Shown here piece after piece: positions 11,637 through 15,402 of a stretch of 64,000 nucleotides of DNA. A program made the position numbers and the translations under genes. Positions within the stretch are counted from its first letter, which is position 1. Each line of letters opens with the position of its first letter. This stretch comes from Ignavibacteriaceae bacterium (GTDB taxonomy: Bacteria; Bacteroidota; Ignavibacteria; Ignavibacteriales; Ignavibacteriaceae): contig JADLAF010000221.1 in the NCBI GenBank assembly GCA_020848375.1, positions 1-64,000 on the forward strand, written 5' to 3'. Under the pieces are notes generated by a model that ran no database searches, was not told the origin of the DNA, and worked only from the letters and a program-made list of their open reading frames with translations.

Positions 11637-13091
11637 ATGGAAAGATATCAGAAGAAGAAAAGACAGAGAGAACCGGAGGCAATTGACGGGGTATTGGTAA
11701 CTCCTTCAGCAGTGGATGTTGAACAGAAAGTTCTCGGCGCCCTTTTACTTGATCAGCAGGCAGTGCCAAAAGTGCTTGGAATACTTACTTCTGAGTCATT
11801 TTATTCAGAAGCGAACCGGTTAATTTATGAAGCCGTGTACGAACTTTTCAGCCAGACACAGCCGGTTGACGGCGTAATGGTGATTGAGCAGTTAAAAAAG
11901 GGGGGGAAACTTGATCAGGCAGGCGGGGTGGCTTATATTGCTCAATTAACCCAGAATGTAACTTCCGCGGCTAACGTTGAGTATTATGCCAGAGTTCTGC
12001 AGGAAAAGAATATCCTCCGTCAGCTAATCTCAGTCTCTAATGAAACAGCACATGCAGCGTACCTGGGCGAAGATGACGCATTTCAGATTCTTGATCACGC
12101 GAACAGCAAATTGATGCAGATTTCTCAGGAACAAACCCGCAAAGGTTTTGTAAAGATGTCAAACGCTGCAATGGAGGCACTTGAATATATAGAACATTTG
12201 CTTGACAGGGATACCGACAAATACGCGGTTAAATCCGGTTATTATGATCTTGATAATATACTGAACGGATTTCAGAAATCCGATTTAATTATCCTTGCTG
12301 CCCGTCCTGCAATGGGTAAAACTGCACTTGCACTTTCCTTAATGCGCAATGTTGCAGTGCTGAGTAACGCCCCGGTTGCCATTTTTTCTCTTGAAATGAG
12401 CCGTATTCAGCTTATGATGAGATTAATAGCGGCAGAAGCACGGATGGACTCAAACCGGCTGCGCAAAGGAAATTTTTCTCACGACGATTTCAGAAAACTC
12501 GCAACAGCAACTTCCAAGCTGAGGAATTCACCAATTTTTCTTGATGATGGAGCCGGTCAGACGATTATGGATATACGTGCAAAATCAAGGCGGCTGGTGT
12601 ATGAGCATAATGTGCAGTTTATCATAGTTGACTATTTGCAGCTTATCCGTGCACCGGAGGTATCAGAAAGCCGTGAGCGCGAAATTGCATATATATCAAT
12701 GTCACTCAAAGCAATGGCTAAGGATCTTAATATCCCGGTCATGGCACTTTCGCAGCTTAATCGTGAAGTTGAAAACCAGAAGGATAACCGTCCGCAGCTT
12801 TCAAATCTTCGTGAGTCAGGAGCTATTGAGCAGGATGCGGATGTGGTGATGTTTATCCACCGTCCGGAGTATTATATGCAGAAGAATAATCCGGAAAAGG
12901 AAGCCAAGAAAGGTCTGGCAGAAATTATCATAGCCAAGCACCGTAACGGTCCCACAGGTGAAATTAATCTTAATTTTATCGGAGAATACTCCAGATTTGA
13001 AAGTTTTGCCGGCGAAAGTTATCAGATACCTGAAAGTGTTGAAGCCGGATTAAAAAAATATAAAGATGAGGATGACGATGGTCCGTTCTGA
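11637..13091 (+). CDS. dnaB: Replicative DNA helicase DnaB
   Basis: 484 residues. It is the hexameric 5'-3' helicase that unwinds DNA at the replication fork. The N-terminal DnaB domain opens with PSAVDVEQKVLGALLLDQQAV. The RecA-like C-terminal domain has Walker A ARPAMGKTALAL near residue 221, FSLEMSRIQLMMRL, Walker B IIVDYLQLI near 325, SQLNREVE, and the Arg-finger region SNLRESGAIEQDADVV. No intein is present. The end overlaps the following exported-protein gene by a few codons. Length and motifs are standard. Confidence 0.97.
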   Translation: MERYQKKKRQREPEAIDGVLVTPSAVDVEQKVLGALLLDQQAVPKVLGILTSESFYSEANRLIYEAVYELFSQTQPVDGVMVIEQLKKGGKLDQAGGVAYIAQLTQNVTSAANVEYYARVLQEKNILRQLISVSNETAHAAYLGEDDAFQILDHANSKLMQISQEQTRKGFVKMSNAAMEALEYIEHLLDRDTDKYAVKSGYYDLDNILNGFQKSDLIILAARPAMGKTALALSLMRNVAVLSNAPVAIFSLEMSRIQLMMRLIAAEARMDSNRLRKGNFSHDDFRKLATATSKLRNSPIFLDDGAGQTIMDIRAKSRRLVYEHNVQFIIVDYLQLIRAPEVSESREREIAYISMSLKAMAKDLNIPVMALSQLNREVENQKDNRPQLSNLRESGAIEQDADVVMFIHRPEYYMQKNNPEKEAKKGLAEIIIAKHRNGPTGEINLNFIGEYSRFESFAGESYQIPESVEAGLKKYKDEDDDGPF

Positions 13092-13951: not shown

Positions 13952-13994
13952 AAAGTATGTAAATTTGTAAATGAATTGCAAAATTACATACTTT
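13952..13994. repeat. Imperfect palindrome, upstream copy
   Basis: The 18-base arms AAAGTATGTAAATTTGTA and TGCAAAATTACATACTTT pair at 16 of 18 positions around a 7-base centre (AATGAAT). It contains TAAATTTG at 13960-13967 but no TTG at the matching upstream position. A near copy lies 207 bp downstream over the start of the AAA ATPase gene. It is probably a regulator-binding site, or a remnant of duplication of the promoter region. Confidence 0.7.
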
Positions 13995-14142
13995 TTTTAT
14001 GGTCTAACCGTTTTATTTCCAGTTTTTGGTGGTTCTTCTGTACTAAAACCACCTCAAAATCTACTTTTTCAGCAATTTGGGGGCATTTTCATCAATTTTG
14101 AAGAATTTTTAATGTTTTATTTTCTGGAAGGATAGGCCAGAA

Positions 14143-14174
14143 TTTGACATATTCTAAATAAGTATGTAAATTTG
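14143..14174 (+). promoter_or_regulatory. Bacteroidota-type promoter of the DUF4143 ATPase gene
   Basis: TTTG at 14143-14146, 20 bases, then TAAATTTG at 14167-14174, a full match to TTTG-N19/20-TAnnTTTG. Transcription would be expected to begin a few bases downstream, at or next to the ATG at 14179, so the message may be leaderless. The -7 element lies inside the left arm of the palindrome at 14160-14200. Confidence 0.7.
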
Positions 14175-14200
14175 CAATATGAATGCAATTTTACATACTT
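14160..14200. promoter_or_regulatory. Palindromic operator over promoter and start codon of the ATPase gene
   Basis: The arms AGTATGTAAATTTGCA (14161-14176) and TGCAATTTTACATACT (14184-14199) pair at 15 of 16 positions, with one further A-T pair outside. They are separated by a 7-base centre (ATATGAA) that holds the ATG at 14179. The same arm sequence and centre length occur in the copy at 13952-13994. A protein bound here would block both the -7 element and the start. Confidence 0.65.
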
Positions 14201-15402
14201 TTATTTTCAAAAGAGCCCTGACTTCTCATCTCCAAAAGATGATTGAGCAATTTCCCATACTTTCGGTGACAGGTCCAAGGCAATCAGGGAAAACCACAAC
14301 ATTAAAACAGAATTTTCCGGATTTTAAGTATTTTAATCTTGAGCGCCCTGACATAAGATTGCTCATTCAATCGGATCCGTTGGGATTTCTAAATCAGCAG
14401 GGACCGGGTCTTATTCTGGATGAGATTCAGAATATTCCGGAATTGTTCAGCTTTATCCAGGCAATATCAGATGAACGCAGAACGCCCGGGCAGTATATTC
14501 TATCTGGGTCTCAAAGTTTTTTGTTGAACGAGCAAATATCGCAATCACTAGCAGGCAGAGTAAATGTCAATCATCTTCTCCCTTTTGAATTAAGTGAACT
14601 GCCAGAAAACAAAACCAATAATTATATCACAACCATGTTGTCAGGGTTTTACCCCAGAATGTGGCAGAAGGATATTTCCGCAGATGATTTTTTCCCGTCT
14701 TATATACAAACGTATGTTGAGCGTGATGTCCGGTCGCTGAGAGCTGTGGGTGATATGGATTCGTTTACCCGATTTGTAAGTCTTTGTGCCGGAAGGGCTG
14801 GACAAGTTCTTAATATTAGTTCACTGGCAAATGATGCTGGTATTAGTGTGAATACTGCAAAAGCGTGGATATCCGTTCTTGAGAGCAGTTATATCATCTT
14901 TCTCCTGAGACCATATTTCAATAATTTTAGTAAACGTCTCATAAAATCGCCAAAAATATATTTTTACGACACAGGGCTTCTTAGTCATCTGTTAAGGATA
15001 ACCACACCCCAAGATCTCAAAACACACTATATGTATGGTTCAATATTTGAGAATCTTATCATTGCTGATCTGATGAAACAGTTTTTTCATTCCGGCAAAA
15101 GACCAGCTATTTATTACTGGAGAGAGAGCAACGGAAGCGAAATTGACTGCCTGATCGAACTAAATAGTCAGAATCTTCTGGCTATCGAGATCAAAGGGGG
15201 AGAGACATTCACAAAAGACTACCTGAAAGTGCTCAGGCGATTTACATCCTCAAATGAAAATCTGTCAATGAAGAAGATACTTGTACACCCCGGAGCAGTG
15301 GATACTGTTATTGAGGATATACAACTGGTTGACTGGAATAAAATATCAGGAATGCTGAAAGAATACATTGATTACATGCCGGGAAAAGATCAAATTAAGT
15401 GA
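14179..15402 (+). CDS. AAA_14/DUF4143 ATP-binding protein
   Basis: 407 residues. Walker A is TGPRQSGKTTTLKQ near residue 31, Walker B is LILDEIQNIPELF near 80, and sensor LSGSQSFLLNEQISQSLAGR near 110 follows. The DUF4143 part starts near 190 with FTRFVSLCAGRAGQVLNISSLANDAGISVNTAKAWISVLESSYIIFLLRP, a winged-helix-like segment. The end (YYWRESNGSEIDCLIE, then IEIKGGETF) has the E-D-(E)xK pattern of a PD-(D/E)XK nuclease-like fold. Proteins of this type are common, mobile in distribution and uncharacterised; nuclease activity is inference. It stands alone between DUF1460 and the TonB operon, under its own promoter within a palindrome. Confidence 0.9.
   Translation: MNAILHTFIFKRALTSHLQKMIEQFPILSVTGPRQSGKTTTLKQNFPDFKYFNLERPDIRLLIQSDPLGFLNQQGPGLILDEIQNIPELFSFIQAISDERRTPGQYILSGSQSFLLNEQISQSLAGRVNVNHLLPFELSELPENKTNNYITTMLSGFYPRMWQKDISADDFFPSYIQTYVERDVRSLRAVGDMDSFTRFVSLCAGRAGQVLNISSLANDAGISVNTAKAWISVLESSYIIFLLRPYFNNFSKRLIKSPKIYFYDTGLLSHLLRITTPQDLKTHYMYGSIFENLIIADLMKQFFHSGKRPAIYYWRESNGSEIDCLIELNSQNLLAIEIKGGETFTKDYLKVLRRFTSSNENLSMKKILVHPGAVDTVIEDIQLVDWNKISGMLKEYIDYMPGKDQIK

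Follow-up and report, generated by a model that had tools for sequence, protein, structure and literature searches.

Start-site palindromes and three-turn arrays at DUF4143 ATPase genes as candidate autoregulatory operators

An ATPase gene and two palindromes at one locus

We analysed a 64,000-nucleotide stretch of DNA from an Ignavibacteriaceae bacterium (the window), in which an AAA_14-DUF4143 ATPase gene is associated with two similar palindromes. The features of the locus are as follows.

13952..13994, no strand: upstream palindrome AAAGTATGTAAATTTGTAAATGAATTGCAAAATTACATACTTT, starting about 20 nt past the stop codon of an AmiA-like gene
13995..14159, no strand: spacer between the palindromes, 165 bp, without a convincing copy elsewhere
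14144..14149, + strand: -35-like TTGACA, overlapping the TTTG at 14143-14146
14160..14200, no strand: promoter-proximal palindrome AAGTATGTAAATTTGCAATATGAATGCAATTTTACATACTT, the proposed operator; relatives have equivalent start dyads
14167..14174, + strand: TAAATTTG, the -10/-7 element, separated from TTGACA by 17 bp and lying in the left arm of the palindrome
14179..15402, + strand: AAA_14-DUF4143 ATPase gene, PDC-S01 family, 407 aa; first canonical start ATG 14179
14272..14295, + strand: Walker A GPRQSGKT, residues 32-39, invariant columns in alignment A1
14758..14949, + strand: winged-helix segment, residues 194-257, pLDDT 92 in the AlphaFold2 model
15139..15195, + strand: PD-(D/E)XK-like active-site motif E321-x-D323...E337-x-K339, conserved columns

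The window protein exceeds the family cut-offs for both domains (AAA_14, 92.7 bits against 27; DUF4143, 166.1 bits against 28.1) and is matched by the PADLOC profile PDLC04790 (PDC-S01) at 2e-97. Its Walker B residues are D81-E82, and across 60 relatives the Walker A, Walker B and PD-(D/E)XK residues are invariant or near-invariant, E321 and D323 being invariant and E337 and K339 conserved in at least 90% of the aligned proteins. The AlphaFold2 model (mean pLDDT 92.4, pTM 0.92) shows a helical segment at 194-257, the predicted DNA-binding domain, and the equivalent segment of a relative matches HTH_11. No solved homologues were found by sequence; a fold search of the PDB returned the archaeal Walker ATPase 2qen as the best match, followed by RuvB, ORC/DnaA and STAND proteins, with modest TM-scores.

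PDC-S01 is an ATPase fused to a PD-(D/E)XK domain (Pfam AAA_14 plus DUF4143, 'ATP-binding protein'), an architecture that the window protein shares; a paper on archaeal defence lists it as a candidate for phage defence and places it fourth in frequency among the defence systems of prokaryotes, with experimental validation still pending for most such candidates, PDC-S01 included (PMC12988326). The passages describing PDC-S01 there mention no operators, repeats or regulation (PMC12988326). Relatives of the window protein occur on 373 plasmid records, and a genome of the same genus (G001) has the same AmiA and TonB-receptor neighbours with the ATPase gene absent. The original prediction of a defence-like or acquired module fits both the PDC-S01 candidacy and this absence from the same locus.

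The palindromes, described earlier as a near-matching pair 207 bp apart, were both located. In a repeat search, the upstream copy had 19-nt arms with 89% complementarity and the promoter-proximal copy 17-nt arms with 94% complementarity; the two share 80% identity over 46 bp, and their starts are 207 bp apart. A degenerate two-arm pattern matched two sites in the 3.46-Mb assembly (about 89% complete), with no third copy, and a reversed, non-complemented control pattern gave 0 matches there. With just two copies in the genome, a dispersed or REP-like repeat was ruled out, and the spacer was rejected as mobile or shared sequence, the matches to it in other genomes being weak, short and AT-rich. 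About 1.2% of control genes and 0.3% of shuffles have an upstream palindrome that scores as high as the downstream copy, whose score is 14.

As originally claimed, the downstream palindrome holds the -7 element and the ATG (14179-14181), and exactly 20 bases separate the TTTG at 14143-14146 from TAAATTTG at 14167-14174. The same stretch can be read as sigma-70-like, TTGACA (14144-14149)-N17-TAAATT, and the exact form TTGACA-N17-TAAATTTG occurs once in the window. Because TTGACA with a 17-bp spacer is a good promoter match, the left arm would be the -10 region, with transcription predicted to start near 14179. The dyad at 14160-14200 thus overlaps the predicted promoter, the -10 inside its left arm and the -35 17 bp upstream, an overlap read in the window and a few relatives. 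The upstream palindrome carries TAAATTTG with no -35 element, in agreement with the earlier remark that the TTTG is missing there. The proposal of a leaderless message found no support. The closest relatives (about 54-61% identity) begin at a codon that aligns with window residue 8 (14200-14202), immediately 3' of their palindrome, so that a start codon within the dyad is peculiar to the window gene and not conserved; as the window has TTT for codon 8 and ATT for codon 9 (14203), ATG 14179 is the sole canonical upstream start of this gene.

Start-site palindromes and tandem arrays across the family

Test genes were picked by protein similarity alone, and the controls were other genes of the same loci with an upstream gap of at least 100 bp, identical start rules being applied to both. 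A strong palindrome (score of at least 11 within -180 to +60 of the start) was found near the start of 73 of 194 DUF4143 genes (38%) compared with 18 of 321 controls (5.6%; Fisher 6e-20), and 1.3% of dinucleotide shuffles reached that score. Palindrome centres fell within -40 to +20 at 41 DUF4143 genes versus 0 controls. When each of the 57 clusters at 50% identity was represented by a single gene, palindromes were present in 37% (p 1e-9). The recurrence at the starts of related DUF4143 genes that the original prediction anticipated is thus strongly evident; of the conserved operator it envisaged, the recurring palindrome stands, whereas the sequence differs, one per subfamily. The relatives concerned come from Bacteroidota, Dependentiae, Patescibacteria, Proteobacteria and methanogens, and such palindromes also occur on named plasmids, e.g., of Runella rosea, Mesorhizobium japonicum (pMLa) and Thermus thermophilus; in the Thermus thermophilus, Mesorhizobium japonicum and Runella plasmid copies, the dyad ends about 2 nt or less from the start codon.

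Many relatives also carry tandem units upstream of the gene. Unit copies at a lag of 31-33 bp with at least 18/24 identity were detected for 70 of 190 DUF4143 genes compared with 4 of 303 controls, and each of the four controls that scored positive is a divergently oriented neighbour whose upstream region is also that of a DUF4143 gene, so the true control count is zero. Off-period lags were at background (26-28 bp, 1 DUF4143 gene versus 3 controls; 37-39 bp, 0 versus 1), the multiples 64-66 and 99 bp were also present, and the 32-33 bp unit spacing corresponds to three turns of DNA. Laid out by period, the arrays hold as many as six units; they lie mostly upstream, reaching -200, and consist of direct repeats, palindromic or not. 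Arrays were found in 23% of the 57 clusters, each represented by one gene (p 2e-8), and in 5 of 25 members of an archaeal set selected purely by Pfam family. About half of the 57 protein clusters have neither palindrome nor array at the thresholds used, and the window gene has no array.

In one DUF4143 clade (alignment A1 rows L170, L111 and L112), the PD-(D/E)XK lysine is lost (E-x-S) and the ExD is kept; some members of this clade retain operator arrays, a hint that regulation may not need nuclease activity.

Single genes of the ATPase_2 family (PF01637) sampled from the same genomes likewise show a strong palindrome near the start in 6 of 29 cases but, unlike DUF4143 genes, have 32-33 bp arrays in 0 of 29. 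Start-site dyads may be common to related ATPase families, and three-turn arrays look particular to DUF4143 genes. Start-site palindromes were seen at the ATPase_2 loci L269, L271, L274, L277, L279, L287, L289 and L296, several with a CGTTACG half-site.

Operator-protein coupling and proposed autoregulation

The unit sequences are gene-specific: paralogues within one genome differ, and similar proteins of different genomes share units. Upstream similarity climbs with protein identity, the share of pairs over threshold being 1.6% at 25-30% identity and 44% at 50-60%, and at equal protein identity the operators of same-genome paralogues are no more alike than those of different-genome pairs. Whole-genome scans with three operator sequences gave matches mostly at DUF4143 genes, with a few strays. 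Coupling was measured as the partial correlation with operator similarity, whole-protein identity being controlled for. It peaks at the winged helix, residues 194-257 (HTH 0.219; gene bootstrap 0.137-0.305), is -0.08 for the AAA core and is weak for the nuclease part (0.147), although the difference between the last and the HTH is not firm (bootstrap of HTH minus nuclease, -0.025 to 0.179). Genome scans, pairwise comparison and partial correlation agree that the sites are specific to their gene and vary with its protein.

As operator similarity follows the winged helix best, we infer that self-recognition through this segment is favoured, with a contribution of shared descent: some of the coupling is plain descent, operators and genes being inherited together. 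The same co-variation speaks for the original suggestion that the ATPase itself may bind via its winged-helix-like segment, and the gene of each ATPase copy is probably recognised and controlled by its product.

We therefore consider it fairly likely that the second palindrome in the window is an operator at the gene's own promoter, that a dimer or oligomer of the ATPase binds it via the winged helix and autorepresses, and that the arrays and co-varying operators of the family belong to the same arrangement. The DUF4143 protein would sit on the palindrome as a symmetric dimer or larger oligomer, making contact through the winged helix, and would cover the -10 element and the start site, repressing its own transcription; the operator sequence would be particular to each gene lineage and change together with the winged helix. 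With sites three helical turns apart in many relatives, oligomers could be bound next to each other along a single face of the double helix. The computational support consists of the recurrence, the 32-33 bp spacing, the gene specificity, the gene-by-gene coupling and the promoter overlap in the window; binding, repression and the oligomeric state are what we infer from it. The original reading of the sites as operators fits these family-wide data.

Toxin-antitoxin systems and the C proteins of restriction-modification systems are autorepressors with palindromes in their own promoters. The DUF4143 genes resemble them in having a gene-specific dyad over the promoter, with self-recognition putative here, and differ in that the ATPase-nuclease would be its own repressor, encoded by a unit of one gene that in many members has three-turn arrays. 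Another likeness is to plasmid iterons, whose period is about 20-22 bp, as they too are direct repeats with whole-turn spacing beside the gene of a winged-helix DNA-binding protein (the rep gene). However, the DUF4143 period is 32-33 bp, most of the genes lie on chromosomes and nothing points to a role in replication; an iteron system was rejected, the relatives having 32-33 bp repeats (70/190) rather than tandem repeats of about 20-22 bp and the window gene no array at all.

Autoregulatory palindromes are a known kind of element. Searchable open papers appear to contain no account of gene-matched operators with three-turn arrays in a candidate defence family that is dominant and unexplained: no earlier description of DUF4143 operators was found in the open literature, and the titles and abstracts on DUF4143 or COG1373 contain no operator work. 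Because the DNA ligand is legible in the sequence of each copy, it provides a direct handle by which binding, specificity swaps and regulation are testable, tractable hosts included. The sharp three-turn spacing yields a prediction of how the protein is seated on DNA, and the operators may aid in recognising family members and correcting start codons.

Solo sites, mobility and other explanations

The palindromes might instead mark the termini of a mobile element with a single gene, or serve as its landing sites, and be recognised by the ATPase or a partner, an explanation that we regard as unlikely. The operator and gene could insert as a unit beside a resident site or be removed when flanking copies recombine, leaving solo sites, a scheme compatible with autoregulation. 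An operator copy (score of at least 20) lies within 250 bp past the stop codon of 11 of 181 genes (about 6%), compared with 0 shuffles and 1 of 163 far-upstream controls, and these post-stop repeats are 47-76 bp long and end before the start codon. In genome G009 the second copy lies 48 bp after the DUF4143 stop, and in G034 it lies 4.4 kb away, beyond three more genes. Also consistent with mobility are stray sites, among them a perfect solo palindrome in the gene-less G001 at the position of the window's upstream copy, and the relatives on the 373 plasmid records. However, most genes lack the 3' copy, the solo site of G001 has no clean insertion boundary (about 110 bp are unrelated), neither target-site duplications nor a transposase fold were seen, and ordinary recombination or duplication can yield flanking copies. 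Remnants of tandem genes were rejected as the source of the 3' copies in the cases inspected, where the repeats end before the start codon and mostly no second start is present.

The copies in G009:C1 (L190 2926-2980 and 4175-4229) bracket the DUF4143 gene alone; those in its sister genome G034:C5 (L196 7761-7794 and about 12164-12191) bracket 4.4 kb that include GmrSD_N, AAA_15/21 and YoeB-like genes. A doubtful extension is that DUF4143 ATPases in general form self-marking units of one gene each, in which arrays matched to the winged helix would be both autoregulatory and attachment or recombination sites, the gene being gained or lost at solo sites and the nuclease acting there. If so, neighbouring defence genes would sometimes be gained or lost along with the DUF4143 gene.

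REP-RAYT systems (REPtrons) combine an HUH transposase with hundreds of dispersed palindromes. Some DUF4143 genes are likewise bracketed by gene-specific palindromes, and solo palindromes occur as well, but the DUF4143 protein has no HUH nuclease and the tested sequences have 1-3 sites per genome. Membership was rejected, as domains and fold differ and the window's genome holds two palindrome copies.

Since the window's upstream copy lies where the gene-less G001 has its solo palindrome, it may be a landing site or what is left of a gene that once resided there. The idea that the palindrome has long belonged to the AmiA locus was rejected, as eight other family members have none scoring at least 13 there. 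The 207-bp pair had been proposed as a looping device, which the family does not support, most relatives having one site or a spacing of 32-33 bp. No counterpart of the 207-bp second site was found in close relatives, nor was a second site at a conserved phased distance; larger offsets that fall outside the 33-bp series (106, 126, 207 and 222) are uncommon and scattered. A looping role of the upstream window copy is possible but unsupported.

It is quite improbable that the dyads work in RNA, as a 5' leader hairpin governing translation or message stability. Although 50 of 117 dyads have their end no more than about 25 nt from the start codon and G.T mismatches modestly outnumber A.C mismatches (38 versus 23 overall; 20 versus 9 near the start, p 0.06), A.C mismatches are likewise tolerated, the arrays are for the most part upstream, as far as -200, and consist of direct repeats without obligatory palindromy, and operator coupling is with the DNA-binding segment. 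The predicted -10 element of the window occupies the left arm, which would therefore escape transcription; together with the arrays, this position argues for action at the DNA level.

Binding by a host transcription factor rather than the ATPase is very improbable. Palindromic operators are typical of many regulators, but the operators of paralogues that share a genome are unrelated, pairs from one genome show no greater operator similarity than pairs from two genomes when protein identity is equal, and the three-operator genome scans found no sites at other genes beyond strays. Chance is negligible as an explanation: short palindromes do arise in AT-rich intergenic DNA, but dinucleotide shuffles (1.3%) and same-locus controls (5.6%) stay well below the 38% of DUF4143 genes, and the sharp 32-33 bp lag is missing from true controls.

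Autoregulation by the ATPase remains our preferred reading, and several further sites were recorded. Another DUF4143 gene of the window's genome is accompanied by a palindrome of its own, which is unrelated and present three times (L116 119-158, 341-380 and 1996-2035; G000:C179), an upstream pair 222 bp apart and a third copy downstream of the gene. A solo operator of DUF4143 type occurs in L243 (G003:C30:368), the DUF4143 gene being absent from the examined stretch. In the men cluster of G041 (ends of L152 and L151; contigs C324 and C302, which overlap by 95 bp at the men-cluster palindrome), a palindrome is followed by ATGATTAAGCGAAAATTAA (MIKRKL, a truncated ATPase-like start) and then by unrelated sequence. 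The solo palindrome of G001 and the truncated start of G041 suggest that operators outlive or precede their genes.
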